Positions 3,659-38,616 of a stretch of 40,530 nucleotides of DNA are shown here, one piece after another (the stretch's first letter is position 1; each line of letters begins with the position of its first letter). The translations under genes and the position numbers were made by a program. Where the stretch lies: contig JAGGXZ010000055.1 of assembly GCA_021162805.1 (NCBI GenBank), forward strand, positions 1 to 40,530, in the 5' to 3' direction. Under the pieces are notes generated by a model. It ran no database searches, was not told the origin of the DNA, and saw only the letters and a list, made by a program, of their open reading frames with translations. This DNA is from Candidatus Poribacteria bacterium. GTDB taxonomy: Bacteria; Poribacteria; WGA-4E; B28-G17.

Positions 3659-3682
3659 GTCGATCAACTCACCCGAATCCCT

Positions 3683-3711
3683 TAGACACGGCATCAGTGG
3701 TGTGATATAAT
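3683..3711 (+). promoter_or_regulatory. Extended -10 sigma-70 promoter for the 872-aa gene
   Basis: TAGACA (3683-3688), a 17-base spacer and TATAAT (3706-3711) form a near-consensus promoter. TG at 3703-3704 makes an extended -10 (TGATATAAT). The start site would be near 3718, leaving a leader of about 34 bases that contains a strong GAGGAGG ribosome site. Confidence 0.65.
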
Positions 3712-13250: not shown

Positions 13251-14417
13251 TCAACCTTCTACATCGATCTGCTTTTTGGTTAAGATCACGTGAAACTCAA
13301 AATCACGTTCGTAAAACTCAGGCTCCTTCCCGACATATTCCCTCATCAACCTTATCATTCTCACTATCCCAGTTCCGATCTGCCCCATAAATCCTCTCTT
13401 CGTGAGAAACGAGACTACGGTGGGATTCCTCTCAACATGTATGCCGTATCTTATGTTCTCCACCGTCACGGTGTTCGGAAGCCTTCCAGGGCTTCTCACC
13501 TCGATTCTATCGTCGAAGATGAAGATCCTTATATGTGACCGGATGGAGTAATCCCTATGTGCCACGGCGTTCACCACCGCTTCCCTCAGAGCTTCAAGCG
13601 GGATCTCGTGTATATCTTTTCTCTTGAACCCCTCTATCCTCCCCGCCACTTTGATGTGGCTCTTGAGCACCCTCTCCGCCTCCTCGAGCTGCTCGAAGAG
13701 CGTTCCGGTTATCTCCTTCTGATCCAGCAATCTCTCGCCGATCTCCTTTCCCTCAAATCTCACGATATGGATCTTCGCCCATGGGAGATACCTCTGAGGT
13801 TCCCTGGCGAAGAGGATCACACCTGCGGTGGTGAGTAATCCCTCATCGTTCATCAGCTTCATGTTCACGAGGACGCGCTCCACCTCGACCCCCTCCTCGT
13901 CGAGAGTTCGCCCGAACGTTTCCCTGAAGAAGCCCTCGAACGAGCGGATGTCCAGGTCCCCGATGGAGGTTTCGGGGATAGGTATCTCGTCGGGATTTAG
14001 AGCCCTCGCCTCCTGGAATATCCTGAGCAGCTCCTCTCTTGTCGCCTGTCTTCTGCCTGAGGACGTCCTTATGTAAAATATCCCTCGGTTTGTCCGGTAA
14101 GGTCTCTGTCCGCCCTGAGGGATATGGACGACGATGACGATCCTAGCATCAACCTTCACCTTCTCCTGAAAACAGGTGATGGGGGGTTCACAGTTGTTGA
14201 AGCTTATCTGGTCAACCCTCTGCATCAGCCTATCCGGATCTCCGACTCCTATTATCTCCCCCTCGTCGGAGACGCCGATTATGAGCTTTCCCCCTTGAGC
14301 GTTGGCGAAGGCGACGAGCGAGGCGGCTATATCCTCGGGACGTGCCCTTTCGTCCTTGAACTCGGTGAAGGCATCTTCACCTTTTTCAACTATCTCCTGA
14401 AGCTCTCTCACCTTCAT
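13251..14417 (-). CDS. AlbA_2 domain protein with GHKL-like ATPase domain
   Basis: This 388-residue protein has an N-terminal AlbA_2 (Schlafen-type) domain, about residues 10-130: FTEFKDERARPEDIA, FANAQGGKLIIGVSDEGEI and later RTNRGIFYIRTSSGRRQAT. A central region follows, then a C-terminal HATPase_c_4-type domain with EALREAVVNAVAHRDYS and RSPGRLPNTVTVENI and the lid-like GTGIVRMI. Proteins of this build are annotated as putative transcriptional regulators or RecG-like ATPases, and AlbA_2 domains also occur in anti-phage loci. It looks complete. It lies immediately upstream of the degenerate ATPase/TOPRIM-like pair on the same strand, so all three may have been one accessory operon. Confidence 0.85.
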   Translation of the reverse strand: MKVRELQEIVEKGEDAFTEFKDERARPEDIAASLVAFANAQGGKLIIGVSDEGEIIGVGDPDRLMQRVDQISFNNCEPPITCFQEKVKVDARIVIVVHIPQGGQRPYRTNRGIFYIRTSSGRRQATREELLRIFQEARALNPDEIPIPETSIGDLDIRSFEGFFRETFGRTLDEEGVEVERVLVNMKLMNDEGLLTTAGVILFAREPQRYLPWAKIHIVRFEGKEIGERLLDQKEITGTLFEQLEEAERVLKSHIKVAGRIEGFKRKDIHEIPLEALREAVVNAVAHRDYSIRSHIRIFIFDDRIEVRSPGRLPNTVTVENIRYGIHVERNPTVVSFLTKRGFMGQIGTGIVRMIRLMREYVGKEPEFYERDFEFHVILTKKQIDVEG

Positions 14418-19198: not shown

Positions 19199-19218
19199 GG
19201 TCCAACGTCCTAAGTCCT
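19191..19218. repeat. Heptameric tandem repeat
   Basis: Four consecutive 7-base units (AAGTCCA, AGGTCCA, ACGTCCT, AAGTCCT) run from 19191 to 19218 and include the TTG start codon of the GT9 gene. Short heptamer repeats of this kind occur in some cyanobacteria and other lineages with repeat-rich spacers. A similar 7-8 base periodicity occurs at 8707-8742. Confidence 0.65.
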
Positions 19219-19224
19219 AAATTA

Positions 19225-19434
19225 ATCGCTCTTATTTCCCTTGAGTGTAGTATCTATGGCCAATTGTCCGCCGTCCACAGCTCAACCGTCATTTGTAGTC
19301 ATTAAGTCATTTGGCTTCGCCGTCATTAATGACTACAAATGACTATCAATGACGACAAATGACGATAAATGACCTATAAGCGGCGGACGGTAGCTTTAAA
19401 AATCTCCGCTACACTCAGCGATAATATGAGCGAT
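19225..19434. repeat. Palindromic, MITE-like intergenic element
   Basis: The 240-base spacer between the GT9 and cytidylate-kinase-like genes is built from nested inverted repeats. A perfect 18-bp pair lies at 19288-19305 and 19326-19343 (20-base loop). Outside it are GTCCGCCG (19266-19273) with CGGCGGAC (19381-19388), then GAGTGTAG (19243-19250) with CTACACTC (19409-19416), and the outermost ATCGCTC (19225-19231) with GAGCGAT (19428-19434). Four tandem 10-base units ending in AATGAC run from 19334 to 19373. No coding frame is present. The long imperfect terminal repeats suggest a miniature inverted-repeat element; no target duplication is evident. Confidence 0.65.
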
Positions 19435-19439
19435 AAGGT

Positions 19440-20138
19440 TTAAAGCACCTGTGGGAACTTGGCGCGCAGGGCGGTTATGATCACATCGGTGGCCTCCTCA
19501 ATGCCGATATAATCCGTGTTTATGGTCAGGTCGTAGTGGATCGGATCGTTTATGTCCAACCTGAACATCTTCTTGACGAAGTCCCGTCTCTGCCTATCCG
19601 AGCGAAGGATCTTCCTTTTGGCCTCATCCTCGGATATATTCTCCCTCTGCATCAGCCTATTAATCCTCGACTCCATGGAAGCGACGATCCTAACGGCTAA
19701 CGTGCAGCGGGTGCAATTAAGGATGAAATTCGCCCCGCGACCCAGTATGATCGCCTTTCCCCGCTGGGCGATGGTGAAGATCGTCTCAACGAGATGTCTC
19801 CGATAGACGTAACGGTCGATCGTTTTCTCCTTGGAGAAAGCCCTCAAGATCGCCTCTATCTCCGTCTGATGTCTCTCGTCCAGAAGCTCGACCATTTTTC
19901 TATGGACGTTTGCGTTGGTGGCGATCTCATCTACGATCTCCCTATCCCATAGCTCCCACCCTAGAATCTTGTTCAGCCTGACCGCTATATCCCTCCCGCC
20001 GCTTGCCAGGAGACGGGAGATGGTGATGACGGGCATCTGTTCCCTAGGCCCGAATTCCTCCCCCTCCTCACCCATTCCGGTTTGGGCGAGGATCCAGTTT
20101 CTGATCTTTTCGCTTTTAATGACATCATCTATCTTCAA
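19440..20138 (-). CDS. Cytidylate-kinase-like protein
   Basis: This 232-residue protein belongs to the cytidylate-kinase-like group (Cytidylate_kin2). After a variable N-terminus of about 34 residues it has VITISRLLASGGRDIAVRL, a degenerate P-loop, then WDREIVDEIA, GKAIILGRGANFIL, and the lid-like RINRLMQRENISEDEAKR with RQRRDFVKKMF. Members are predicted nucleoside monophosphate kinases, but their real substrates are mostly unknown. They differ from the housekeeping Cmk, whose P-loop is more classical. The TTG start overlaps the stop of the Ser/Thr kinase gene by TTGA, and AGGAGG lies 11 bases upstream. It is the last gene of a five-gene overlapping operon and is followed by the palindromic spacer. 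Confidence 0.85.
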   Translation of the reverse strand: MKIDDVIKSEKIRNWILAQTGMGEEGEEFGPREQMPVITISRLLASGGRDIAVRLNKILGWELWDREIVDEIATNANVHRKMVELLDERHQTEIEAILRAFSKEKTIDRYVYRRHLVETIFTIAQRGKAIILGRGANFILNCTRCTLAVRIVASMESRINRLMQRENISEDEAKRKILRSDRQRRDFVKKMFRLDINDPIHYDLTINTDYIGIEEATDVIITALRAKFPQVL

Positions 20139-22012
20139 CTTTCAACCGTCCTCCTTTTCTTCGATTCTATTGTGGCCAACAACCTTCGCGCCTGATCAGC
20201 AGGCGACCATCTGCCCATCCCCGATGAGAGATTGACCGCCTGACGACAGGCAGTATAGGCCTCCTCGAGCTGATCCTCCTCAAGGGCGAGCTGGGCGGCC
20301 GTATAATAGGCCGTGATCGCCTTTTTGGTCATTCCCCTCCTCTCGATTTCCCTTAGAGCCGTCTGATAGGCATCGGCGGCTTTGAGATAGAACTGCGCTG
20401 CTGAGGCCCATTCACCTTCGATCGCTGCCCTCTCGGCCAGAGATCGATAGACCGACGCCGATCTCTCCAGCATCTTGCGTCCCTTTCTCCTTCGACCTCC
20501 CGATTTGTAGGCCATGGCCGAGCTCATCAACAGCTTAGCCGCATCGGCGGAAGGTCCATCCTTCAGCAGATCCTCAGCGCATCTCCTGAACAGCTTAGCC
20601 GCTTTCCTATAGCATCTCCTGGCTCTGAAGAATCGGGATTCATCCCAAAGGGATCTGCCCTCGTCCATGTATAGCTCGGCAACCCTCCTGCGATCCCCCC
20701 TTTTCCTGTATTCCCTGATCATACGTCGGTAATCCCCGGGCCTGAGCTCCCTCATCTCCTCAGCGGATTCAAGCTCGCTGAGACAGGTGACCTGTGACAT
20801 CTTCTCCTTCAGGAGATTGAACTCCGTTTGGGAAAGGGATCTGATGATCTGGATCGCAGTCCTCAGATCTGCCCCTCGCTTCATATCTCCCGCCCTCGAT
20901 ATGTTCACCATGAGATCCTCGATCAGATCGGCGGTCGAGTCGTCGGGTGCAATGGATCTGAGGATCCCTCTCAACCTCCGGCCGGCTGAGGATCGATCCC
21001 CACCCGTCAACTCCTCCTTCGCCCGGCGATACTCATCGATGATCCGACTCTCAAGATCGGCCCTCTCGATCTCATCGATGAGCCTATCAAGCATAAAGGC
21101 AGCGTGTTTGGGATCAAAGCCCAACCGTGATGCGATCTCAGGTGAAAGCTTACGGGGGTCCTCTCCGGAACTCCGAAGAGCGTAAACCCTATCTCTAAAC
21201 AGCTTTTCCCTCACTCTCTCCAGATCTTCGATCAGATCGGCGACCGATTGGTATCTATCCTTAGGGTTCGGATCAAGAGCTTTACGTATGATATCGGCCA
21301 GCTCATCCGGCAGATCGTCGGAGATCCGCACCTCATCGAGCTTTTTAGCCTTCTCGATGAGATCGGTCTCATCCGAGGGGAAGGGGAGGCTGCCGGTAGC
21401 CATCTCATGGAGGATGATGCCGACGGAGTAGATATCGGCCCTGTGGTCGTAGTTGCCCCTCAACTGCTCGGGCGCCATATACCTTCTGGTTCCGACGATC
21501 GTATGCAGATATTCGGACTGCTCGGCGGCTCTGGCCACGCTGAAATCGGTCAGCTTTGCCCTGAAGGAGGAGTCTATGAGGATGTTCTGAGGTTTGATAT
21601 CCCTGTGGATAATCCCAAGGCTATGGGCATGCTGTAGGGCATTGCAGATGTCCATCCCTATCCTGATCGTCTCCTCCAAGGAGAGGGAACGGGATGAGAT
21701 CAACCTCTTGAGGTTTCCCCCATCGACGTATTCCATGACTATGTAGGCTACGCACTCCTCATCCCCCGGTTCGACCGTGTGGACGGCGACGATGTTGGGA
21801 TGCCCCCATAGCTTCCCCATAAACCTCATCTCGTCCAAGACATACCTGATCGATCGCTCATCATATCGATCCCTCTGAAGCGCCTTTATGGCGACGGGTC
21901 TATCGCAAAACACGTCCTGAGCCTTGAAGACCGAACCGAAGGTTCCGTTGCCCAAAAACCGCTCTATTCTGTATTTCCCAAGCAATACCTGATTCAGGAT
22001 CATCTCGTTCAC
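20135..22012 (-). CDS. Hanks-type Ser/Thr protein kinase with helical C-terminal repeats
   Basis: This 625-residue protein has a kinase domain at about residues 13-275: glycine loop GNGTFGSVFKA, lysine K43 in VAIKAL, HRDIKPQN with catalytic D138, magnesium motif D156-F157-S158 (DFS in place of DFG), and GTRRYMAPEQLRG. The rest (about 290-625) is alpha-helical, Arg/Lys/Glu-rich and resembles TPR-like helix pairs (ARRCYRKAAKLFRRCAE, AAQFYLKAADAYQTALRE). There is no membrane helix or PASTA domain, so it should be cytoplasmic. The start is GTG at 22012 (ATG at 22003 possible) and overlaps the menA stop by GTGA. Its substrates are unknown. The operon placement next to a histidine kinase suggests a signalling role. 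Confidence 0.9.
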   Translation of the reverse strand: MNEMILNQVLLGKYRIERFLGNGTFGSVFKAQDVFCDRPVAIKALQRDRYDERSIRYVLDEMRFMGKLWGHPNIVAVHTVEPGDEECVAYIVMEYVDGGNLKRLISSRSLSLEETIRIGMDICNALQHAHSLGIIHRDIKPQNILIDSSFRAKLTDFSVARAAEQSEYLHTIVGTRRYMAPEQLRGNYDHRADIYSVGIILHEMATGSLPFPSDETDLIEKAKKLDEVRISDDLPDELADIIRKALDPNPKDRYQSVADLIEDLERVREKLFRDRVYALRSSGEDPRKLSPEIASRLGFDPKHAAFMLDRLIDEIERADLESRIIDEYRRAKEELTGGDRSSAGRRLRGILRSIAPDDSTADLIEDLMVNISRAGDMKRGADLRTAIQIIRSLSQTEFNLLKEKMSQVTCLSELESAEEMRELRPGDYRRMIREYRKRGDRRRVAELYMDEGRSLWDESRFFRARRCYRKAAKLFRRCAEDLLKDGPSADAAKLLMSSAMAYKSGGRRRKGRKMLERSASVYRSLAERAAIEGEWASAAQFYLKAADAYQTALREIERRGMTKKAITAYYTAAQLALEEDQLEEAYTACRQAVNLSSGMGRWSPADQARRLLATIESKKRRTVES

Positions 22013-22899
22013 ACCAGCCTATCCAGCAGATAGGCGAGACAAAGCGCCAGGCCGAAGGAAAGATGAAGCATGACCGTCGCTGCGTTCGCCGGGATTAAAT
22101 TCATCGGATCGTCGTATCTCGATAAGGCTATCTTGGCGCTTTTGAAAGCTATGGGAAGGGTGATCAGAGCTATCGCCACCCAGGGGATGCCGAGGAGGAT
22201 AAGCCAGATATAGGAAAAGGCCAGCATCCCGACATAGATGTAGGCCGATCTTCTCAATCCCAGCTTGACCACAAGCGTTCTTTTGCCGACGGCGGCGTCC
22301 GCGTCGTAGTCAGGGAACTCGTTTATCCATAGCACGGCGGCTATCAGGAGCGATATCGGCACAGAGGCGATGACCGGCCGCAGGGAGAGAAATCCCGTTT
22401 GAACGTAATATGAGCCGAGGACGACGAGGATTCCGAAATTCAGCCCGACCATCATCTCGCCGAGACCGTGATAACCAAACCTTATGGGCACGGCGGTATA
22501 GAAGAATCCTGAGAACACACCGATGAGACCCAAATAGAGGATAACATTTCCCGGGCGTCTCCAGTTGAGATAGAGCCCTATGAGACACCCTAGGGTGAAC
22601 CACGATAGCGAGTAGATTAAAATCCCTCTTGGCGAAATCAGCCCATCCTGAATCACCCTGCTCCCGCCGCTGAAAGGGGTGGGATGGGGATTCAGATCGT
22701 CGTTTCCGGAGAGATGATCGAAGTAATCGTTCGCGAGGTTCGTTCCGGCATGTAGGGCGATCACGCCTATCAACGTGAGGATCAGATCCGGAACCGATAT
22801 CCTGCCCGTATGGTTATAGGCCACGGCGGTACCCAGAAGGACGGGAACGGTGGAGGCGGTGAAGAAGGGAGCTCGCAGCGCTTTAACCCACCTGTTCAT
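22009..22899 (-). CDS. menA: MenA-type UbiA-family prenyltransferase
   Basis: This 296-residue integral membrane protein has about eight to nine hydrophobic helices. The first aspartate-rich motif is NLANDYFDHLSGND (about residues 53-66), and the second is around NEFPDYDADAAVGKRTL (about 190-206). This pair is typical of 1,4-dihydroxy-2-naphthoate prenyltransferase, which attaches the isoprenoid tail in menaquinone synthesis. Related UbiA enzymes cannot be fully excluded without alignment. No other men gene is in the window. The gene overlaps the histidine kinase upstream by 17 bases and the Ser/Thr kinase downstream by 4, so it is co-transcribed with signalling genes rather than with quinone genes. 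Confidence 0.78.
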   Translation of the reverse strand: MNRWVKALRAPFFTASTVPVLLGTAVAYNHTGRISVPDLILTLIGVIALHAGTNLANDYFDHLSGNDDLNPHPTPFSGGSRVIQDGLISPRGILIYSLSWFTLGCLIGLYLNWRRPGNVILYLGLIGVFSGFFYTAVPIRFGYHGLGEMMVGLNFGILVVLGSYYVQTGFLSLRPVIASVPISLLIAAVLWINEFPDYDADAAVGKRTLVVKLGLRRSAYIYVGMLAFSYIWLILLGIPWVAIALITLPIAFKSAKIALSRYDDPMNLIPANAATVMLHLSFGLALCLAYLLDRLV

Positions 22900-23593
22900 C
22901 GGGCACCTCCAGCGGCAGTTTTAACGTGAACTTGGACCCTTTCCCGGGCTTGCTCTCCACCTCGATATCTCCTCCCATCAATCTCGCTAGCCTTCTCGAT
23001 ATGCTTAACCCCAGCCCATATCCGTCCGTCCCTGGGATCAACTGGACGAACTCCTTGAAAAGCTTTTCGATATCTTCTCGTTCAATTCCGGGACCGGTGT
23101 CGATCACGGAGAACTCGATCCATCCGTCATCATCCGAGGGTTCGCATGTGAGTTCCACGTAACCTCGCTCGGTGAATTTAACGGCGTTTGAGAGCAGGTT
23201 AAGCAGAATCTGCCTGAGCTTGACCGTATCGGTCAGTATGCTTTTGAGGGAGGGATCGAGGTGGAATCTAAGATCTATCCCTTTTTTCCTGGCCATCGGC
23301 TCAACGGTTCTGACGGTATTCGCTATGAATTCGGGCAGATAACACCTCCCGATCTCCACCTTCACCTTTCCGGAATCTATCCTGGAGATATCCAGCACAT
23401 CGTTGACCAGTTTGAGGAGATGCTGGGCATTTTTATGGATCATTTCGACGGCCGCCTGAACCTCGCCGTTCACCTCGCCCATCAGCCCCTGCAGGATGGC
23501 GTCTGAGAGGGCGATGATAGAGGTTAGCGGGGTTCGCATCTCATGGGTCATATCCGAGATAAGGTTGGGTTCCTTTCGGTTGAAATCATCCAT
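22883..23593 (-). CDS. Sensor-less histidine kinase
   Basis: This 236-residue protein consists only of the kinase core. HisKA has H17 in MTHEMRTPLTSI, followed by DVLDISRIDSGKV. The HATPase domain has the N box LLNLLSNAVKFTERG, then VIDTGPGIEREDIEKLF, FVQLIPGTDGYGLGLSIS and GKGSKFTLKLPL. There is no input domain, membrane helix or receiver, so it must get its signal from a partner or from another protein's domain. No response regulator lies in this operon. The ATG at 23593 overlaps the GATase-like gene by 8 bases. All phosphotransfer motifs are present, so it should be active. Confidence 0.88.
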   Translation of the reverse strand: MDDFNRKEPNLISDMTHEMRTPLTSIIALSDAILQGLMGEVNGEVQAAVEMIHKNAQHLLKLVNDVLDISRIDSGKVKVEIGRCYLPEFIANTVRTVEPMARKKGIDLRFHLDPSLKSILTDTVKLRQILLNLLSNAVKFTERGYVELTCEPSDDDGWIEFSVIDTGPGIEREDIEKLFKEFVQLIPGTDGYGLGLSISRRLARLMGGDIEVESKPGKGSKFTLKLPLEVPDEQVG

Positions 23594-24347
23594 CTCGACA
23601 GGCCTCCACGAACGATCTAAAGAGAGCTGCCGCCTCAGGATGTCTACGCCACATCATCTCCGGGTGAAACTGGACGCCGAGCACGAATTTATGTCGGGGG
23701 CTCTCTATCGCTTCGATGATACCGTCGAGCGATGTGGCCGAAACCACAAATCCCTCCGCGGGCATCCTGACGGCCTGGTGGTGATAGGAATTGACATGGA
23801 TCACAGATTTGCCGATTATCTTGTGCAATAGGCTTCCTTCGACCACCTTTATGGTGTGAGAGCCGTACCATCCGGCGGCTCTCTGCCGATGTTTAAGCAC
23901 TTCGCCGGAGTGCTGGCTGAGATCCTGATAGAGCGTTCCTCCGGCGGCCACGTTCAGAACCTGTATCCCCCTGCATATGGCGAAAAGGGGTAGATCCCTC
24001 TCAAGCGCCAATTTTGTGAGCTCCATTTCGACCATGTCCCTCTCCAGATCAACGGCCCCTAGTTTCCGATGTGGCTCCTCGCCGAAGAAATGGGGTGAGA
24101 TGTCACCGCCGCCGGAGAGCAGAAGACCGTCTATCACGTCGATGTAGGTTTCGGCCAGGGACATATCCTCGAAGACCGGTATAACGAGCGGCAGGCCGCC
24201 GGCATGTTCTACGGCGTTGATGTACTCATAGCCACAATAGGAATATCTGAACACCCCGCTGCCTTCGTCATCGGCTATCTTAACCGATGTCCCGGAAGTT
24301 ATACCTATGACCGGTCCTTTCGACCTTGTCGTCATGTCGAATTCCAT
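23586..24347 (-). CDS. Class I glutamine amidotransferase-like hydrolase (PuuD/peptidase C26)
   Basis: This 253-residue protein has the class I GATase fold. GVQFHPEMM carries H228 and E230, the nucleophile C125 is in FAICRGIQVLNVAAGG, and LLSGGGDISPHFFGEEP is the early glycine-rich motif. The length and the motif order fit gamma-glutamyl-gamma-aminobutyrate hydrolase (PuuD-like), which cuts gamma-glutamyl amides, but substrate assignment in this family is unreliable. It is the first gene of the five-gene minus-strand operon. GAGGT lies 8 bases before the ATG. I see no clear promoter in the 62-base gap to the divergent hisA, which holds a GC-rich hairpin (24373-24389). Confidence 0.85.
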   Translation of the reverse strand: MEFDMTTRSKGPVIGITSGTSVKIADDEGSGVFRYSYCGYEYINAVEHAGGLPLVIPVFEDMSLAETYIDVIDGLLLSGGGDISPHFFGEEPHRKLGAVDLERDMVEMELTKLALERDLPLFAICRGIQVLNVAAGGTLYQDLSQHSGEVLKHRQRAAGWYGSHTIKVVEGSLLHKIIGKSVIHVNSYHHQAVRMPAEGFVVSATSLDGIIEAIESPRHKFVLGVQFHPEMMWRRHPEAAALFRSFVEACRDG

Positions 24348-29510: not shown

Positions 29511-30698
29511 ATGGTAAAAGAGGATATATCCCTGCTCAGGGAAGCCTTCGATTCTTTCAACAGAGCAGTTGACAGATTAAGCTCCTCCTACTCGGAACTG
29601 GAGAAAAAAGTCGCTCAGCTCAAGGAGGAACTCGCCAGGGAGAACGCTGAGAAGGAGAAGCTGCGCGGATATCTTGAGAGCATACTCAACAGCATCGACC
29701 TGGGGGTGATAGCTGTTAACGTCGAGGGCAGAGTGATCTTTTTTAACAGGGCGGCGGGGGAGATACTAGGGCTGGACCCCCAGAAGGCGGTCGGTCGTAG
29801 TTGTTCTTCCGTGCTTGGGCTCGATTCACCGCTTGAGGAAACGCTGAGGAATACACGACGCAGGACCTTCGACGACGAATTGATAAACCCTGAGGAGAAC
29901 GGCGAACCGATAAAGGTCGAGATAACCACCTCGCCGATGTGGGATGAACACGGTAAGGTGATAGGGGCCGTGGAGGTGATAAAGGATATATCCGAGCGGA
30001 AGATGTTGGAGGAACAGATCAGGAGGTCCGAAACGCTATCCGCGCTTGGTGAGATGGCCGCCCAGGTCGTCCACGAAATACGAAATCCACTGGGAGCGAT
30101 TCAGCTTTATGTGGGTATACTACAGAGGGAGCTGAGCGGGGATCAGAAAAAGCTTGCCGACGATATAGCCTCCGGCCTCAGGTCGATAGAGATCATAACC
30201 TCCAACCTGCTTGCCCTCGCCCGACCGATCAAACCGTCCTTCCGAGAGGTGGATATACTCGCCCTGCTGGAAGAGGTGATAACCTTCGCCATATACGCCA
30301 TAGAGGAGAATGGGATCAAGCTGATAAGAGATTATCCTGAGTGTGGCCTGATCTGCCACGTCGATCCGGAACAGATCAAACAGGTCGCTCTTAACCTTAT
30401 ACTCAACGCCATCCAGGCTATGCCTGAAGGAGGCGTGTTGAGGATATCCGCTTCGAAGGGCAACGGCAGGATAAAACTTGAGTTCGAGGACACAGGAGTT
30501 GGGATACCTCAGGAACATCTGGATAAGATCTTCAATCCCTTCTTCTCGACGAAAAGCACCGGAACAGGTCTGGGATTATACACGGTGGATAAGATCCTCA
30601 GAGCGCACGGCGCATCGATAAGGGTTAAAAGCCAAGTGGGCGTGGGAACCTGTTTCCTCATAGAGATCCCGGAGGTGATAAAGGGTGAGCAGCGATAA
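29511..30698 (+). CDS. PAS histidine kinase, NtrB/FlgS-like
   Basis: This 395-residue kinase has no membrane helix. An N-terminal coiled coil (residues about 15-58) is followed by a PAS domain (ILNSIDLGVIAVNVEGRVIF). The core has H188 in VVHEIRNPLGAIQL and the HATPase motifs NLILNAIQAMPEGG, FEDTGVGIPQEHLDKIF and FSTKSTGTGLGLYTV. Its 14-base overlap with the NtrC-type gene shows they are a pair. Such cytoplasmic NtrB-like kinases upstream of flagellar operons (FlgS/FlrB) phosphorylate a sigma-54 activator; here the flagellar operon follows next. A weak -10 (TATGAT, 29478-29483) lies ahead of the gene, and GAGGTG precedes the ATG. Confidence 0.9.
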   Translation: MVKEDISLLREAFDSFNRAVDRLSSSYSELEKKVAQLKEELARENAEKEKLRGYLESILNSIDLGVIAVNVEGRVIFFNRAAGEILGLDPQKAVGRSCSSVLGLDSPLEETLRNTRRRTFDDELINPEENGEPIKVEITTSPMWDEHGKVIGAVEVIKDISERKMLEEQIRRSETLSALGEMAAQVVHEIRNPLGAIQLYVGILQRELSGDQKKLADDIASGLRSIEIITSNLLALARPIKPSFREVDILALLEEVITFAIYAIEENGIKLIRDYPECGLICHVDPEQIKQVALNLILNAIQAMPEGGVLRISASKGNGRIKLEFEDTGVGIPQEHLDKIFNPFFSTKSTGTGLGLYTVDKILRAHGASIRVKSQVGVGTCFLIEIPEVIKGEQR

Positions 30699-32034
30699 AA
30701 TATTGATAATAGATGATGACGAGCATCTGAGGAAGGCCTTGAAAGAAGTCATAAGGAGGGAAGGATATGAGGTGGTAGCCGCTAGCAGAAAAGAGGAGGC
30801 GCTGGAGATGATCCCGCATGTCAGGTTCAGCGTCGCTCTTGTGGATATCAGGATGGACGAGTCACACAGAGACGGGATAGAGATACTAGGCAGAATCAAG
30901 GAGATAGCGCCTGAGGCAGCCGTGTTGATCATGACGGCATATCCGAGCGTCGAGACGGCAGTGGAGGCGATGAAGCTCGGCGCCGCCGACTATATCTCGA
31001 AGCCTTTCTCATACGATCAGCTCATGCAGAAGCTTCGAAACCTCGCCGGCCCTCCGGGTGAAGAAGAACGATATTTCGGCGGAATCGTCACCCGGAACAA
31101 GCAGATGCTGAAGATACTGGAGACCGTGAGAAATGTCGCCGCCACCCAATCAACCGTCCTCATCAGGGGAGAAACGGGCACGGGGAAGGAACTGGTGGCA
31201 AGGGCGTTGCATAACTATAGCCCGAGAGCCGACGGCCCCTTTGTCGCCGTCAACTGCGCCGCACTCCCGGACATGCTGCTGGAGAGCGAACTCTTCGGAT
31301 ATGAAAGAGGGGCGTTCACAGGGGCTGTATCGAGGAAGTTGGGGAAATTCGAGCTGGCTCACGGAGGAACCCTCTTCCTGGACGAGATCACGGAACTCAC
31401 TCCTAAACTGCAGGCTAAGCTGCTCAGGGTGCTGGAACAGAAAGAGGTGGACCGGCTAGGAGGGAGAGAGCCGATCCCCGTAGATGTCAGGGTTATCGCT
31501 ACGACGAACGAGGATATCGAGGCATGCGTTGCCGAGGGGAGATTTCGCGACGATCTATACTACCGCGTGACGGTCGTGACGATAGAGCTGCCCCCTCTAA
31601 GGGAGCGGAAAGACGATATACCGCTCCTGGCCAGACATTTCCTTAAGATCTATTCCCGGCAGCACTGTAAGGAGATAGTGGATCTGTCCGAAGGGGCGAT
31701 ACAGAAGTTGATGGATTACCACTGGCCGGGAAACGTCAGACAGCTTCGAAACATCATCGAGCAGGCGGTCATCCTGTGTCCCGATGAGATCATCACCGAG
31801 ATGTATATCAATCCTGAAAGAAGAAGACGATCATCCAACCAGATAGTCATACCTATCGGAACGCCGCTCCATGAAGCCGAGAAGATGATAATTCTGAAGA
31901 CCCTGGAGGCGTGTGGAAACGTCAAAACCAAAGCGGCGGAACTCCTTAAAATCACTCCGAGAACCATCAGAAACAAGCTGAAGGCGTACGCCAAGGAAGA
32001 AGGAAGGCGGTTTGAAGATGAGGAGGAAGAATAG
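30685..32034 (+). CDS. NtrC-family sigma-54 activator, FlgR/FlrC-like
   Basis: This 449-residue protein has a receiver with D54 in [11 protein letters not shown]. The AAA+ domain has Walker A GETGTGKE near residue 162, the intact sigma-54 contact loop GAFTGA at residues 209-214 and [18 protein letters not shown] Fis-type DNA-binding helix-turn-helix lies near the C-terminus ([20 protein letters not shown]). The GTG start at 30685 overlaps the kinase gene by 14 bases. A sigma-54 promoter lies 93 bases after its stop, before flgB, so the activator probably drives the flagellar operon (inference). The enhancer sites are not identified. Confidence 0.93.
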
Positions 32035-32142: not shown

Positions 32143-32193
32143 CAAATATAGAGGGCGTTTCTCCCTAATCGAAAAACGGGAGGGTTTGTGAAG

Positions 32194-32619
32194 ATGCCGG
32201 GGCTTTTCGATTCGGTTTCCAAAATGCTTGAGGTTGCCATTCGCGGAACCGTCCTCAGGCACAATATCATCGCCAATAACATCTCCAATGCGGATACGCC
32301 GGGATATCAGGCGATGGATATCTCCTTTGAGGGGCTGCTGAGAAGAGTTCTTTCAGGGGAAGTCGATCCGGAGAGGGTTGATATGACGCCTAAGCTTGAT
32401 TACTCCCCTCCGAGACTTGCTGGGTTGGACGATGAGAAGGATAACGGGGTCGAGTTGATCCTTGAGCCGGGAGAGGAGGTCAAATTGGATGCCAACACCG
32501 TGGATATAGATCGTGAGATGACGAAACTTGCCGAGAATCTCATCATGCATAACGCCTTCGTGAGACTTCTAAACGCCAAGTATAGAATCCTTAAAACCGC
32601 CATAAATGGAAGGGCGTGA
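32194..32619 (+). CDS. flgB: FlgB, proximal rod protein
   Basis: About 141 residues. It is the first gene of the flagellar operon. The rod signature near the N-terminus is HNIIANNISNADTPGYQAMD, and the C-terminal helix has MTKLAENLIMHNAFVRLL. It forms part of the proximal rod crossing the periplasm. I use the ATG at 32194: GGGAGG lies 9 bases upstream, whereas the GTG at 32188 sits too close to it. FlgC follows after 13 bases. Confidence 0.93.
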   Translation: MPGLFDSVSKMLEVAIRGTVLRHNIIANNISNADTPGYQAMDISFEGLLRRVLSGEVDPERVDMTPKLDYSPPRLAGLDDEKDNGVELILEPGEEVKLDANTVDIDREMTKLAENLIMHNAFVRLLNAKYRILKTAINGRA

Positions 32620-32632
32620 GGAGGTATGAGAA

Positions 32633-33070
32633 ATGGATCTGTTCACGTCGATGGAGATAAGTGCCAGCGGGCTTACCGCTCAGAGAATCAGGATGAACGT
32701 CATATCCGAGAACCTCGCCAATGCCAACACCACCAGAACTCCTCAGGGAACGCCATATCGGCGTAAGGAGGTTTTATTTGCGACAAGGCCTGGAGGAACG
32801 ATATTGAGGGCGGGATTTATGAATCTCCCGTTCGATCTGGGAAGTGGGGTTGCTGTAACCGGGATAGTGGAAGATAAATCCCCATTTAGGGAGGTATATG
32901 ATCCAGGCCATCCGGACGCTAACAGCAAAGGGATTGTTCTGATGCCAAACGTCAATGTGGTCGTGGAGATGGTGAATATGATTTCAGCTACGAGGGCCTA
33001 TGAGTTGAACATCACTGCCCTTTCAGCCGCCAAAGAGATGGCGATGAAAACCTTGGAGATAGGAGCGTGA
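32633..33070 (+). CDS. flgC: FlgC, proximal rod protein
   Basis: This 145-residue protein is a rod component with the family opening ISASGLTAQRIRMNVISENL followed by ANANTTRTPQGTPYRRK, and the closing motif VNMISATRAYELNITALSAA. Both terminal helices, which pack into the rod, are present and the length is standard. The GAGGTATGAG stretch gives a ribosome site. fliE begins 4 bases after its stop. Confidence 0.94.
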   Translation: MDLFTSMEISASGLTAQRIRMNVISENLANANTTRTPQGTPYRRKEVLFATRPGGTILRAGFMNLPFDLGSGVAVTGIVEDKSPFREVYDPGHPDANSKGIVLMPNVNVVVEMVNMISATRAYELNITALSAAKEMAMKTLEIGA

Positions 33071-33074
33071 AAGG

Positions 33075-33377
33075 ATGAAGGTAGAATCGAGTTACGATCG
33101 ACTCAAATTTGAAGGACAGATGAAGGAGATCACCTCCGGGGGAAAGGGTAAAACCACCTCCTCGTTCATGGATATCCTCAAGGACTCCATTCAGAAGGTG
33201 AATGAGCTTCAGGTCGAGGCGGATAAAGCTATAGCGGAACTGGCTACAGGCAAGAATAGGGATATTGCCAGGACGATGATCGCCGTCGAGAAGGCGAACA
33301 TCGCCTTTCAAATGATGACGCAGATAAGAAATAAGATCGTCGAGGCATATCAGGAGATAATGAGGATGCAGGTGTAA
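33075..33377 (+). CDS. fliE: FliE, MS-ring to rod adapter
   Basis: This 100-residue protein joins the MS ring to the rod and is needed for export. It has SFMDILKDSIQKVNELQVEA and then ATGKNRDIARTMIAVEKANI and IAFQMMTQIRNKIVEAYQEI, the typical C-terminal helix of FliE. The length is normal and the operon position between flgC and fliF is standard. Confidence 0.93.
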   Translation: MKVESSYDRLKFEGQMKEITSGGKGKTTSSFMDILKDSIQKVNELQVEADKAIAELATGKNRDIARTMIAVEKANIAFQMMTQIRNKIVEAYQEIMRMQV

Positions 33378-33381
33378 GGAG

Positions 33382-35052
33382 ATGCCGGAGGGTATAAAAG
33401 GGTTACTGGAACAGCTCAAAACGGTATGGGGAAATCTGCCGAGGCAGGCAAAGATCGTCATACCTCTGGTATCGATTGGATTGCTGATCGGCCTAATCGC
33501 CCTGAGTTTACGCACGAATTCCTCCTACACGCTGCTATATAGCAATCTGAACGTCGAGGATCTGCGCGATATACAGATAGAACTCAGCAGGATGAACGTC
33601 AAATACAAACTCGGTCAGGACAACTCGATCTATGTCCCATCAAAAGAGGAGGCACGGCTGAGATTGATGCTTTCAGAGTCGGGCTTGCCCAGAGGGGACA
33701 ACGGATACAGCATTTTCAAAGAGAGGAATCTCGGCGAGACTTTCTTCGACTACGAGCGGAAGTACCAGGAGGCCACGGAGAGGAAGCTGAAACAGGCGAT
33801 AGAAAGTCTGCGTCCGGTTAAATTCGCCACGGTTAACATCACCCCCATGGAGGAATCGGTTTTCCTCGAAGGGGAACGACCGGCCAAAGCTTCCGTCATG
33901 CTTCAGCTTGAGCCAGGCACTCATCTCTCGCGCAAACAGGTTGAAGGGATCGTGCACTTGGTGGCTGGAGCGGTAAAAGGCCTTGATCCGGAAAACGTGG
34001 TCATCCTCGATGAAAGAGGGAATCAGTTGAACGCCGACCTAGACGAGGTGGAATCGGCGCAGATGCGGCTGAAACATCAAAGTGAGCTCGAAAAGCTCTT
34101 CGCCAGGAAGATCAGAGATCTGCTCGTGCCGCTCGTGGGCCCCAACGGATTCTCGGCGGAGGTGACGGTCGAGACTAACTTCGACCTAACGGAGACGACC
34201 ACCAAGAAATATAACAACGACGATGAGGTGATCTCCAAGGAGACCACCACCACGGAGAACTCCCAGGGCGTGGTTTCGACCGGACTTCCGCCAGGGACGG
34301 CTTCAAATGTGGTCTCCTCGGCTCAGGTTCAGCTCCCTTCCTCCAATCAGCCGATTTCCTTAAGCAGGAACACCACCACAAAGGAGTATGTGCCGAGCGA
34401 GACGATTCAGAAGGTCAAGAGCCTGCCGGGGGATATCAAGAAGGTTTCGGTTTCGGTTCTGCTGGATTACAAGCGCTCGGTCGGCCCTAACGGCAAAGTA
34501 ACCAAAGTGCCATGGACAACGCAGGAGCTTCAAATGATAGAGGATAACATCAAAAGCGCCATCGGGTATGATCAGAGACGCGGGGACATGGTAAAGGTAA
34601 ACGCCATTCAGTTCGACACCCTCTACGCCTTGCAGTATCAGGCCGAGCTGAAATCGGCCAAACGACATGAGCTCTATATGACCTTCGCCAGATACCTATC
34701 TATCGTAGCACTTGGATTCATGCTCTTCATACTGGTGAGGTTCATCATAAAGACTCTTGCATCGCCACAAGGGAAGGTGATACCAGCAGCTCTGGGCCCC
34801 GAGGTCGGCCCTGAGGCGATAGAGACGGGAGAAGGGAGAAGAGAGTTGGAAACCAAGCGAGAGGTCAAAGCGGTGGAGGCTCAGAAAGAAGAGGAACTCT
34901 CTCTTGAGGAGATCTTTCCAGAGCTTACCGGCGAGAGCAGGACTAAAGCGGAGGAGATTCAGCGTAAGGTCTTCAGCTTTGCCGAACATGATCCCGAAGC
35001 TATGGCTAAATTGATAAGAACATGGCTGCTGGAGGATGAAAAAGGGGAATGA
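33382..35052 (+). CDS. fliF: FliF, flagellar MS-ring protein
   Basis: This 556-residue protein builds the inner-membrane MS ring. It has a first membrane helix at about residues 25-43 (IVIPLVSIGLLIGLIALSL), then the ring-building motifs: SNLNVEDLRDIQIELSRMNV, then SESGLPRGDNGYSIFKE and LERKLKQAIESL-like. A second helix near residues 436-456 (FARYLSIVALGFMLFILVRF) leads to a cytoplasmic tail (SLEEIFPELTGESRTKAEEI) that binds FliG. The middle region is Thr/Ser-rich (TTTENSQGVVSTGLPPGTA). The size is standard, and fliE lies 4 bases upstream. Confidence 0.94.
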   Translation: MPEGIKGLLEQLKTVWGNLPRQAKIVIPLVSIGLLIGLIALSLRTNSSYTLLYSNLNVEDLRDIQIELSRMNVKYKLGQDNSIYVPSKEEARLRLMLSESGLPRGDNGYSIFKERNLGETFFDYERKYQEATERKLKQAIESLRPVKFATVNITPMEESVFLEGERPAKASVMLQLEPGTHLSRKQVEGIVHLVAGAVKGLDPENVVILDERGNQLNADLDEVESAQMRLKHQSELEKLFARKIRDLLVPLVGPNGFSAEVTVETNFDLTETTTKKYNNDDEVISKETTTTENSQGVVSTGLPPGTASNVVSSAQVQLPSSNQPISLSRNTTTKEYVPSETIQKVKSLPGDIKKVSVSVLLDYKRSVGPNGKVTKVPWTTQELQMIEDNIKSAIGYDQRRGDMVKVNAIQFDTLYALQYQAELKSAKRHELYMTFARYLSIVALGFMLFILVRFIIKTLASPQGKVIPAALGPEVGPEAIETGEGRRELETKREVKAVEAQKEEELSLEEIFPELTGESRTKAEEIQRKVFSFAEHDPEAMAKLIRTWLLEDEKGE

Positions 35053-35053
35053 A

Positions 35054-36064
35054 ATGGATGAGAAAAGATTAAAAGGTGTTGAGAGAGCCGCAATATTGAT
35101 GGTGATATTGGGAGCCGAGAGAGCCGCTCAGATCTATAGGCATCTCAATGAGGACGAAATTGAGAAAGTCTCGTTGCAGGTGAGTCAGCTTAAGGCCGTT
35201 CCGCCTGGAGTGAAGCTCGATGTGCTTCAAGAAGTATACGACCATATCCTGGCGAAAGAATACGTCGAGCAAGGGGGGATCGAATTTGCCAAGGTTGTTC
35301 TAGAAGCCGCTCTAGGCGAGGAAAGAGCTAAGAGAATCCTGGAAAGAATCCGCAGATCACTTGAGGGTAACCCGTTCGAGTTCCTAGATAAGGCCGATCC
35401 GGAGCAGTTGATCATGCTGTTGGAAAACGAACATCCACAGGTGGTTTCGCTCATATTGGCTAACCTCTCACCCGACCAGGCAAGCGCCGTCTTAGGAGGA
35501 TTGCCCGATCAGGTGAGATACGAAGTGATCAAGAGGATCGCCAACATGGAGAGCATAACCCCTGATGTATTGGAACTCCTTAGAACCTCTCTCCAGACGA
35601 GGATATCCACTATGATGGGTGGAACGGCGAAGGTCGGCGGACCTGAATTGGTGGCCGAAATACTCAATAGGGTCGATTCAAACGTGGAGAAGAGCGTGCT
35701 TGAAAAACTGGAGGAGGAGGATCCGGAACTGGCCGAACAGGTGAAGAACCTGATGTTCGTCTTCGATGATTTCATGCTTCTCGACGACAGGGATCTGCAG
35801 AAGGTTATAAGGGCTGTCAAGGATAACCGCGACCTAGTCCTCGCTCTGAAAGGGGCCACGGAGGAGCTCAAGGAGAAGTTCTTCAAGAACATGTCCCAGC
35901 GTATGGCGTTGATGATCAAAGAGGATATGGAGGTTATGGGGAGGGTGCCGTTGCGTGAGGTGGAGGCCGCCCAGCAGAGAATCATACAGGTTGCTAAGGA
36001 GTTAGATGAGGCTGGCGAGATAGTTCTGCAGAGACACGGTGCCGAGGAGGAGGTGTTCATCTGA
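35054..36064 (+). CDS. fliG: FliG, flagellar motor switch protein
   Basis: About 336 residues. It is the C-ring switch subunit that takes force from the stator. The N-terminal domain (RAAILMVILGAERAAQIYRH) binds FliF, the middle domain has ENEHPQVVSLILANLSPDQA, and the C-terminal domain carries the charged torque helix DRDLQKVIRAVKDNRDLVLA. I use the ATG at 35054 because AAGGGG lies 6 bases upstream; an ATG at 35036 lies within fliF. fliH begins at the last base of its stop (TGATG). Confidence 0.95.
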   Translation: MDEKRLKGVERAAILMVILGAERAAQIYRHLNEDEIEKVSLQVSQLKAVPPGVKLDVLQEVYDHILAKEYVEQGGIEFAKVVLEAALGEERAKRILERIRRSLEGNPFEFLDKADPEQLIMLLENEHPQVVSLILANLSPDQASAVLGGLPDQVRYEVIKRIANMESITPDVLELLRTSLQTRISTMMGGTAKVGGPELVAEILNRVDSNVEKSVLEKLEEEDPELAEQVKNLMFVFDDFMLLDDRDLQKVIRAVKDNRDLVLALKGATEELKEKFFKNMSQRMALMIKEDMEVMGRVPLREVEAAQQRIIQVAKELDEAGEIVLQRHGAEEEVFI

Positions 36065-36846
36065 TGGCAACCGTTATAAGAGCCGAAGATCACAACATCA
36101 GCACCATCAGAAGGTTCGATCTGGAATCGCTCGGTCTCGAACCTCCTAAAGGGAAAAGTAGCCGCAATGCCGAGAAGGATAAGATCTTGAATGAGATCCT
36201 CTCTCAAGCAGAGGAGATCAAAAGGGAAAAGATAGCCCAGGCGGAGCAGGAGGCGCGGGAGATTCTGATGAAGGCCAAGGCTGAATCGGAGGAGATCATC
36301 CGTCAAGCCCGGCAACAGGCGCAGGATCTGATAAAACTGGCTGAGAAAGAGGGATTCAAAGCTGGTTTCGATAAGGGATTCAACGATGGCATGCAACAGG
36401 CAGAACAAAGGCTGAAAATGATGGAGGAAGCCCTTAGACGGGCAGTGGATGAGTTCCGCAAAATCACAGATGATCTGATCAGAGAGAACGAAAGGGAAAT
36501 CGTTCAACTTATCAGAATAACGGCCGAGAAGATCGCTTTAAAGGAACTTTCCATATCTCCTGAATCGCTGCTTAAGGTGGCTAAGGAGGCGATCAGGGTT
36601 TGCCGATCGCCTCAGGCGATTTTAAGACTTCCACCCGATCTTCTCTCGTTGTTCAGAGAGCATAGGTCGAAATTGATGGAAGACCTGGATGAGGTGGAGT
36701 CGATCAGAATCGAACCGGATGAGACCCTCAGCCGGTTCGACCTGATGGTTGAAACCGATGATATGATCGTTGACGCCGCTCTTTCACGGAGGGTAGAGCG
36801 AATCCAAAAGGTTATCGAGGAGGCTTATGAAGCCCATAAACCTTAA
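36064..36846 (+). CDS. fliH: FliH, export ATPase regulator
   Basis: This 260-residue protein is the peripheral stalk regulator of the flagellar export ATPase. It has a long charged coiled coil (residues about 40-130: EEIKREKIAQAEQEAREIL), the GxxxG-like GFKAGFDKGFNDGM and a C-terminal domain (AEKIALKELSISPESLLKVA and IRIEPDETLSRFDLMVETDD) like V/F-type ATPase subunit E. Its position between fliG and fliI and the coiled coil support this. It overlaps fliI by 20 bases. Confidence 0.88.
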   Translation: MATVIRAEDHNISTIRRFDLESLGLEPPKGKSSRNAEKDKILNEILSQAEEIKREKIAQAEQEAREILMKAKAESEEIIRQARQQAQDLIKLAEKEGFKAGFDKGFNDGMQQAEQRLKMMEEALRRAVDEFRKITDDLIRENEREIVQLIRITAEKIALKELSISPESLLKVAKEAIRVCRSPQAILRLPPDLLSLFREHRSKLMEDLDEVESIRIEPDETLSRFDLMVETDDMIVDAALSRRVERIQKVIEEAYEAHKP

Positions 36847-38155
36847 ACTCAACCTATCCAAATATATGACGAGGATCAATGGGATCGAACCGCTCAAGAT
36901 TTACGGGAGGGTAAAACAGGTTGTAGGACTGGTGGTTCAAGCCTCCGGGTTGAGCGCTTCCGTCGGCGAACTCTGTCTCCTTATCCCTTCCGGCGGGCCC
37001 CCGGTGAACGCCGAGGTGGTGGGATTCAGGGATGATGGGATCTTGCTTATGCCATACGGGGAGCTGAGAGGTGTAAGGGCTGGGGATAAAGTTGAGCTTT
37101 CCAAATCGACCTTGACCGTTAAGGTCGGCCGATCCTTGCTGGGTAGAGTTCTGGATGCGCTCGGCTTACCCATAGACGACAAAGGGGATCTCGTCTGGGA
37201 GGAGGAACGCCTGATTCACAATACCCCTCCGAATCCGGTTTTAAGGAGAAGAATTACAGAGCCGGTCTCCACGGGAATCAGAGCCATCGATGGGCTCTTA
37301 ACGATCGGTAGGGGACAACGGATCGGGATATTCGCCGGGAGCGGTGTAGGCAAAAGCACCCTGCTCGGGATGATCGCCCGATACACCGAGGCCGATGTCA
37401 ACGTCATCGCCCTCATAGGTGAAAGAGGCCGTGAGGTGAGAGAGTTCATCGAGAAGGAGCTTGGAGAAAAGGGATTAGCGAGATCGGTCGTCGTAGTGGC
37501 CACCTCCGATCAGCCTCCGCTTCTGAGGGTTTTAGGGGCATTGACAGCTACAAGTATAGCCGAGTTCTTCCGCGATAGGGGGCTGAGCGTGATGCTGATG
37601 ATGGATTCGTTGACGAGGTTTGCCATGGCACAGAGAGAGATAGGGCTGGCGGCAGGGGAACCTCCGACGAGTAAAGGATATACGCCGTCGGTCTTTACCA
37701 AGATGCCGGCATTGCTCGAACGGGCCGGCACTTCCCCCGGGAAGGGGAGCATAACAGGGATATACACTGTGCTGGTCGAGGGGGATGACCTGAGCGATCC
37801 GGTGGCGGATGCTGCCAGATCAATCCTTGACGGACATATCGTCCTTTCCAGATCACTCGCCGATCAGAACCATTACCCCGCAATAGATGTGCTTAAAAGC
37901 GTCAGCAGGGTTATGAGCGATATCGCATCCCCCGATCATAAGGAAGCAGCGGCGATCTTCAGACAAGTGCTGGCGACATACTGGGAGTTCAGAGACCTCA
38001 TAAACATCGGCGCATATCAGCATGGCAGCAATCCGAAGATAGATTATGCTATAGCACACATCGACGCGATGAATGAGTTCCTCAGACAGGATGTGGACGA
38101 AAGCTCCGATTTTCACACCACGCTGAATCGGTTAAAGGGGCTGTTTGAGTCATGA
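36827..38155 (+). CDS. fliI: FliI, flagellar type III export ATPase
   Basis: This 442-residue ATPase has a P-loop at G171-S177 (GSGVGKS), VIALIGERGREVREFIEKEL, the Walker B region VMLMMDSLTRFAMAQREI, and the signature KGYTPSVFTKMPALLERAG with GSITGIYTVLVEGDDLSDP. It energises unfolding and export of rod, hook and filament subunits. The length is standard. It overlaps fliJ by 4 bases (ATGA). Confidence 0.96.
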   Translation: MKPINLKLNLSKYMTRINGIEPLKIYGRVKQVVGLVVQASGLSASVGELCLLIPSGGPPVNAEVVGFRDDGILLMPYGELRGVRAGDKVELSKSTLTVKVGRSLLGRVLDALGLPIDDKGDLVWEEERLIHNTPPNPVLRRRITEPVSTGIRAIDGLLTIGRGQRIGIFAGSGVGKSTLLGMIARYTEADVNVIALIGERGREVREFIEKELGEKGLARSVVVVATSDQPPLLRVLGALTATSIAEFFRDRGLSVMLMMDSLTRFAMAQREIGLAAGEPPTSKGYTPSVFTKMPALLERAGTSPGKGSITGIYTVLVEGDDLSDPVADAARSILDGHIVLSRSLADQNHYPAIDVLKSVSRVMSDIASPDHKEAAAIFRQVLATYWEFRDLINIGAYQHGSNPKIDYAIAHIDAMNEFLRQDVDESSDFHTTLNRLKGLFES

Positions 38156-38616
38156 GACGTTTCAACTTCAGACTCGAAGGGATATTGAGATATAGAAACA
38201 TGATAGAGGAGCAACGTAAAATGGATCTGGCGCGCGAGACGAGCCTCTATGAAAGAGCACTCAAGTCTCTGGTTGAGGTTCAGGAAAAGATAGCGGATGT
38301 TGAGGAGAAGCTTGCTCGTAAAAGCGCTAAAGGATTAACGGGTGCTGAGGCTAGAATTCACCTGAGATACCTCTCTTTCCTGAGGGAAATTGAGAGGGAA
38401 AGGCAAAAGGAGCTCGAAGAGGCGAATGAAAGGTTGGAGGAGGCCAGAAGGAAATTTATAGAGTCCAGACGGGAAAGGAAGACCGTAGAGACGCTTAAGG
38501 AGAAAGCATATGAGCTTTATCTCGAAGAGCTTAAGAGGGCCGAGCGGAAATTGATAGATGAGGTGGCGGCTAATAAGATCGCTAGATCGATAGCTGATGA
38601 GAGGCGATTGCCATGA
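38152..38616 (+). CDS. fliJ: FliJ-like export chaperone
   Basis: This 154-residue protein is almost entirely a charged, coiled-coil helix: it starts FNFRLEGILRYRNMIEEQRK, typical of FliJ, and is rich in Glu, Arg and Lys. It overlaps fliI and the next gene by 4 bases each. FliJ links FliI to the export gate. The identification rests on start motif, size, coiled coil and operon position. Confidence 0.85.
   Translation: MRRFNFRLEGILRYRNMIEEQRKMDLARETSLYERALKSLVEVQEKIADVEEKLARKSAKGLTGAEARIHLRYLSFLREIERERQKELEEANERLEEARRKFIESRRERKTVETLKEKAYELYLEELKRAERKLIDEVAANKIARSIADERRLP

Follow-up and report, generated by a model that had tools for sequence, protein, structure and literature searches.

In the flavin-based extracellular electron transfer (FLEET) loci of Listeria and Lactiplantibacillus, DmkA is a MenA-type prenyltransferase; in L. 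plantarum, it occurs without a complete menaquinone pathway (PMC10746273). The L. plantarum genes are hypothesized to produce demethylmenaquinone (DMK) from 1,4-dihydroxy-2-naphthoate (DHNA) and an isoprenoid, the rest of the menaquinone pathway being missing, and cells grown in DHNA contained MK-6 and MK-7 (PMC10746273). In the present work, we describe a run of five genes, including one for a MenA-type UbiA prenyltransferase (MenA), in a 40,530-nucleotide stretch of DNA from a Candidatus Poribacteria bacterium (contig 55, JAGGXZ010000055.1, of assembly GCA_021162805.1), the whole of which is referred to as the window. In the order of transcription, the run encodes a Peptidase_C26 hydrolase, a histidine kinase (HK), MenA, a Ser/Thr protein kinase, and a Cytidylate_kin2 protein (CK).

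Comparison of this locus with the described systems revealed both common and distinct features. Like DmkA, the window protein is a MenA-type prenyltransferase; unlike in the FLEET loci, no EetB-type gene of the PF07456 family was found in the host genome (G000) or in its relative G001, and the HK and CK genes lie beside menA instead. With the MenA of the classical menaquinone pathway, the protein shares a score above the cut-off of the NCBIfam menA equivalog model TIGR00751, whereas the upstream enzymes MenD and MenB are not above cut-off in the host genome and MqnA/MqnD are not found there. The sole sequence match of the window MenA in PDB at E <=0.001 is UBIAD1 (8djk, E 8.2e-27); UBIAD1, which prenylates a salvaged naphthoquinone, differs in being a eukaryotic membrane protein that is not part of an operon. 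We propose, giving this explanation an even chance of being correct, that the run is a translationally coupled operon with a core of HK, MenA, and CK, and that MenA prenylates a ring with an origin other than the menaquinone routes examined here, most simply scavenged DHNA.

Conservation of a three-gene core

The five genes are complete reading frames on the minus strand and span positions 19440-24347. The original prediction described them as a co-directional run with overlaps of 4 to 17 bases, and this packing was confirmed: along the direction of transcription, the overlaps are 8 bases for C26/HK, 17 for HK/MenA, 4 for MenA/Ser-Thr kinase, and 4 for Ser-Thr kinase/CK.

The gene order was compared between draft genomes. 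The host genome comprises 4.35 Mb in 232 contigs and is 95% complete; G001, the sole other genome of the same family in the search, belongs to another genus and is 76% complete. A 4,128-base contig of G001 (contig 256) keeps the order HK-MenA-CK, with 63% identity to the window protein for HK (over 197 amino acids, the copy being cut by the contig end), ~67-68% for MenA, and 72% for CK. The HK and MenA genes overlap there by 4 bases, and a gap of 28 bases separates MenA and CK. No Ser/Thr kinase gene was found between MenA and CK, nor in the rest of G001 as assembled (76% complete). Since the HK gene is truncated by the end of the contig, the N-terminal side of HK and any position of the C26 gene lie outside the view. 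HK-MenA-CK is thus a three-gene core in two genera of the family. The original prediction had been tied to conservation of the gene order in some relative; since HK-MenA-CK is kept in G001, such a relative exists, but the Ser/Thr kinase is missing from the conserved part. A kinase cascade as the core of a conserved module was rejected, as the Ser/Thr kinase is missing in G001, where HK stays.

Other occurrences of the five genes were compared at 17 loci, namely 6 for the Ser/Thr kinase, 7 for C26, 2 for MenA, and 2 for CK, one of the latter being on another contig of the host. BLASTP of the called reading frames (top matches) was followed by tblastn with the five proteins as queries and a threshold of 1e-4 (all matches). 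No second member of the five genes was found at any of these loci, two of which lie on short contigs (3.7 and 4.8 kb) that limit the comparison there. A literature search found no paper that combines a UbiA prenyltransferase, a histidine kinase, a cytidylate kinase, and an operon.

The MenA-type prenyltransferase and the quinone pathways

The orphan MenA is the most informative feature of the run. The window protein matches the UbiA family profile PF01040 above cut-off (122.1 bits) and passes TIGR00751 with 126.4 bits (cut-off 102.15), as do the MenA proteins of G001 (132.7) and of a more distant genome, G058 (149.2). It is 51-52% identical to the G058 protein and 34-35% identical to that of a further genome, G059. 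Some match to MenA was found in 10 of the 84 genomes of the phylum; it was strong only in G000, G001, G058, and G059, and the E values in the other six range from 2.8e-5 to 2.8e-4. The host genome encodes a second UbiA protein that resembles geranylgeranylglycerol-phosphate and other prenyltransferases and falls below every cut-off among 25 of the 31 families listed, the MqnP models included.

The four MenA-bearing genomes (G058 and G059 are 88% and 91% complete, respectively) were compared with four genomes of the same class, G003, G005, G022, and G025, and with 14 control genomes. This comparison revealed the following distribution of markers: (i) MqnA/MqnD (PF02621) is found in none of the four MenA-bearing genomes, in all four same-class genomes (4 of the 8 searched), and in 4 of the 14 controls; (ii) MenD is above cut-off in none of 8 genomes and MenB in none of 6, with 7 of 14 control genomes positive for each; (iii) UbiE/MenG is above cut-off in five of the eight genomes (G003, G005, G022, G025, and G058); (iv) NuoH of complex I is found in all four same-class genomes and in no MenA-bearing genome; and (v) the Rnf/Nqr family PF03116 is found in five of eight genomes, comprising all four MenA-bearing ones and G005. 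In these eight genomes, the presence of the MenA-type gene thus coincides with that of Rnf and with the absence of complex I and MqnA/D. Although the genomes are drafts, assembly gaps alone are an unlikely reason for a marker to be missing from all four genomes of one group and present in all four of the other.

For the host genome, the search for a ring-forming pathway covered MqnA/D, without a match, and MenD and MenB, both below cut-off; MqnB, MqnC, MqnE, MenC, MenE, and MenF were not searched. Because the markers of neither ring pathway were found, MenA probably acts on a ring obtained from neighbors or on something else. The most likely substrate would be a naphthoquinone precursor obtained by scavenging, by analogy with the proposal made for lactic acid bacteria that are auxotrophic for quinones, or else a different acceptor. 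A classical menaquinone operon was considered and rejected, the marker genes MqnA/D, MenD, MenB, and MenG not being found. The link to respiratory quinones that the original prediction suggested for the run is weakened by a host that lacks matches to MqnA/D and NuoH and in which MenD, MenB, and MenG all stay below cut-off. The Rnf cluster of the host consists of RnfC-, RnfD-, FMN_bind-, two Rnf-Nqr-, and RnfB-like genes.

Gene neighborhoods of MenA in G058 and G059

In G058 (contig 3, L157:990-14853), RnfC-, RnfD-, and Rnf/Nqr-type genes and a NuoF-like gene lie upstream of menA in one direction. The menA gene, in the same direction as all the others, is flanked directly by the genes for a NuoG/hydrogenase-like iron-sulphur protein and a polyprenyl synthase, the latter being followed by NusG_II, Hpre_diP_synt_I fused to a CbiQ-like part, and UbiE. 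Because it lies beside the polyprenyl synthase, NusG_II, Hpre_diP_synt_I, and UbiE genes and downstream of the Rnf/NuoF-like cluster, the G058 gene looks like a true quinone gene. NusG_II and Hpre_diP_synt_I correspond to EetA and EetB of Listeria, and together with the polyprenyl synthase and MenA they look like the quinone part of a FLEET-type locus joined to an Rnf cluster. The G058 genome has no match to MqnA/D, and neither MenD nor MenB exceeds its cut-off there. In G059, menA and a PF07456-NusG_II gene pair are on separate contigs; near the MenA-like gene, contig 314 (L158:4503-5303) encodes an encapsulin-type shell protein (Linocin_M18). A full FLEET/EET locus was rejected for the host, where PF07456 was not found and the 10.7 kb read at the Rnf cluster contain no quinone gene; such a locus is partly present in G058.

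The kinases, the Cytidylate_kin2 protein, and the hydrolase

HK matches PF00512 (HisKA, 60.2 bits) and PF02518 (HATPase_c, 108.6 bits) above the cut-offs, with His17 as the phospho-acceptor, and so has the composition by which a two-component kinase is recognized. The Pfam scan of its 236 residues shows nothing else, and since HisKA starts at residue 11, there is no room for a sensor, in agreement with the earlier description of HK as a histidine kinase without a sensor domain. That description also held that no response regulator is nearby. The statement is correct for the operon, where the Pfam scan of the five genes found none; the window contains two, an OmpR-like and an NtrC-type sigma-54 regulator, each paired with another kinase (Table 1). 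The gene of the NtrC-type regulator is located ~7 kb from the HK gene, and this kinase/regulator pair adjoins the flagellar genes at 32188-39161 on the plus strand, which encode rod proteins, FliF, FliG, FliH, a FliI-type ATPase, and FliJ.

Querying the genome collection with HK gave 125 loci, of which 80 with 34-44% identity were kept solely for a count of cysteines. Cys84 is common to the host and G001 and occurs in none of these 80 kinases, two of which are gapped at this position; Cys150, also common to both genomes, occurs in 7 of the 80. With two sequences at 63% identity, the shared cysteines may reflect plain descent, and we regard them as a lead, no more.

The Ser/Thr kinase matches PF00069 above cut-off (190.3 bits). 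Its VAIK, HRD, and APE motifs are present, and DFG reads DFS, as in one of six aligned relatives (G005). The C-terminal tail has TPR_2 and SNAP matches below the cut-offs and is weakly TPR-like. The protein is not of the PASTA type (PknB/Stk1): NF033483 covers residues 8-271 only, with 247.9 of the required 450 bits, and no PASTA match was found. The kinase was matched in 9 of the 10 genomes searched, with G001 as the sole exception. A relative in G004 is 39% identical over nearly the full length, and separate matches to the tail were found in G003, G007, G012, and G022; therefore, the kinase gene appears to be of older standing in the class, and in the window genome it is located within this operon.

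CK matches PF13189 (Cytidylate_kin2) above cut-off over nearly the whole profile (150.1 bits) and is not recognized as a (d)CMP kinase by TIGR02173 (46.3 bits, cut-off 102.1). It resembles the other members of the family in matching this profile and both related PDB chains, 3hdt ('putative kinase') and 3fdi ('uncharacterized protein'), and differs from them in that its gene adjoins those of MenA and a histidine kinase here. To our knowledge, no activity is on record for 3hdt or 3fdi. A second, more distant CK relative (28% identity) is encoded on contig 52 of the host (L113:8138-8860).

The hydrolase matches PF07722 with 243.7 bits (cut-off 20.5); the best NCBIfam model, PRK11366, remains below cut-off (143.1 of 266). 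Relatives were found in 7 of the 9 other genomes searched, with no match in G001 or G012. On contig 10 of G058 (L168:2507-6894), a C26 gene is followed by a glutamine synthetase gene and then by a gene for a CHASE4-HisKA-HATPase-REC hybrid kinase. The latter was rejected as a counterpart of the window HK, having no match to it at 1e-4; this is the sole near-case of its type that we noticed, and by sequence comparison it is not counted as the same gene.

Packing of the run and other features of the window

The coordinates of the features are given in Table 1. A list of 38 window genes was compiled by hand from the tables of open reading frames, 33 of which were scanned against Pfam; hisA, moaE, a ThiS-family gene, and an isochorismatase gene were preferred over longer overlapping frames. 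Overlaps are also present in 11 of the 27 other co-directional neighbor pairs of this list, a count that is approximate because the list is hand-made with such choices of frame. As so many other pairs overlap too, an overlap says little by itself about a shared function; the tight packing of the five-gene run is real but not special.

Table 1. Positions of the five-gene run, the adjoining spacer, and the response regulators in the window
Feature	Position	Strand	Family or remark
Peptidase_C26 hydrolase (class-I glutamine-amidotransferase-like, gamma-glutamyl-hydrolase type), 253 amino acids	23586-24347	-	PF07722; gene 1 of the run
Histidine kinase (HK), sensorless, 236 amino acids	22883-23593	-	PF00512 and PF02518; gene 2
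MenA-type UbiA prenyltransferase, 296 amino acids	22009-22899	-	PF01040, TIGR00751; gene 3
Ser/Thr protein kinase with C-terminal TPR-like tail, 625 amino acids	20135-22012	-	PF00069; gene 4
Cytidylate_kin2 protein (CK; nucleotide-kinase-like), 232 amino acids	19440-20138	-	PF13189; gene 5
Spacer after the run, 241 bases	19199-19439		weak terminator-like hairpin 19421-19406, minus strand
OmpR-like response regulator	2984-3694		Pfam; overlaps its own sensor kinase gene, 1246-2994
NtrC-type sigma-54 response regulator	30685-32034		Pfam; overlaps its own PAS-type sensor kinase gene, 29511-30698

Scans for signals in the region were uninformative on the operon boundaries: 4 promoter-like sites were found with 4.3 expected, and 6 terminator-like sites with 4.2 expected from shuffles, which is not significant. 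In G001, the run goes on through a gene for a 229-amino-acid protein into a heptosyltransferase gene; the window has an ortholog of the latter downstream of the spacer. The G001 protein (L004:803-1492) has hydrophobic stretches, as judged by eye, and no Pfam match; its gene overlaps that of CK by 4 bases and occupies the place of the 241-base spacer. On its minus strand, the spacer contains repeats of TCATTTGT-like units, which were recognized by eye and were missed by the repeat scan of the window at its settings, which found only short, chance-like families. Elsewhere in the window, positions 13251-14417 encode a protein that combines a Schlafen/AlbA_2 domain with a C-terminal domain resembling RecG.

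Possible explanations of the run

In the explanation that we propose, the run would be a single, translationally coupled operon with the family-level core HK, MenA, and CK, inside which the Ser/Thr kinase lies in the window genome and not in G001. MenA would attach a polyprenyl chain to DHNA or a relative of it scavenged from other cells, yielding a demethylmenaquinone-like electron carrier for the membrane of an organism that has Rnf and lacks complex I. HK is predicted to be a cytosolic kinase signaling to a response regulator encoded elsewhere. What the data show are the gene content, the overlaps, the order of the core in two genera, and the missing matches to the marker genes, whereas co-transcription, salvage, the product, and the roles of both kinases and of the nucleotide-kinase-like protein are inferred. 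A more specific version, in which HK, MenA, and CK form a dedicated quinone-salvage module of organisms lacking naphthoquinone synthesis of their own, MenA turns a scavenged ring into a membrane quinone, the soluble HK with its Cys84 senses the state of this quinone, and CK serves prenyl or ring activation, appears highly improbable to us.

Several observations weigh against this explanation. The conserved order is known from a single contig of 4,128 bases in a single further genome, and all four MenA-bearing genomes are drafts. MenD and MenB do not separate the MenA-bearing from the other genomes, neither group being above cut-off; UbiE/MenG is not above cut-off in G000 and G001 (nor in G059); the G059 protein falls below the menA cut-off of TIGR00751 (65.2), and the window MenA falls below the narrower NCBIfam models NF004751 (188.1 of 264) and NF004749. 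EetB-like PF07456, present in G058 and G059, is found in neither G000 nor G001. Because no quinone gene lies within the 10.7 kb inspected around the Rnf cluster of the host, and G000 and G001 have no MenG above cut-off and no PF07456, no consumer of the quinone was found. For the lactic acid bacterium that provides the analogy, the route of quinone incorporation is said still to be identified (PMC10746273), and a table lists dmkA and dmkB of L. plantarum as dispensable for electron transfer that depends on DHNA or flavin, although iron reduction with DHNA is slightly but significantly lower in the mutants (PMC9888254).

In a rival explanation, the genes are neighbors without a common function, that is, unrelated genes of a gene-dense genome that are together in G001 only as the two genera are still close. 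This is possible, if on the unlikely side: overlaps are common in the window (11 of 27 other pairs), no second gene of the five was found at the 17 loci in other genomes or on the other host contig, and the G001 run continues, with the frames overlapping as called, via the 229-amino-acid protein into the heptosyltransferase, so functionally mixed runs do occur here. However, the order of the trio and its overlapping or nearly overlapping junctions have been kept at 63-72% protein identity despite the gain or loss of a 1.9-kb gene between two of its members. The UbiA protein might alternatively use another aromatic or lipid acceptor, and the operon would then be unrelated to redox carriers. We consider this rather doubtful. 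It would account for the host and G001 having no match to MqnA/D or NuoH, for their MenD, MenB, and MenG searches giving nothing above cut-off, and for the scores below the narrower MenA models; yet TIGR00751 is passed in both genomes, the protein is about half identical to the G058 protein encoded beside polyprenyl synthase and UbiE genes, and its only PDB match within the threshold used is UBIAD1, which prenylates a naphthoquinone. The module suggested in the original prediction, in which the Ser/Thr kinase feeds the sensorless HK and both couple the quinone state to phosphorylation, seems barely credible. Both kinase genes are in one overlapping run and the Ser/Thr kinase motifs look intact apart from DFS for DFG; but this kinase is missing in G001, the only relative that keeps the order, where HK stays, and its six relatives elsewhere lie at loci without the other four genes in the stretches read. 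A relay from the Ser/Thr kinase to HK thus finds no support.

Significance of the orphan MenA

As a MenA-type enzyme without detectable ring synthesis, the protein points to dependence on neighbors for quinones in a lineage represented by draft genomes; a literature description of such dependence was found for lactic acid bacteria. The operon also provides a histidine kinase whose input might be a ligand or a redox state. Should MenA act on a different acceptor, the homology-based label 'menaquinone' would be wrong in this lineage.

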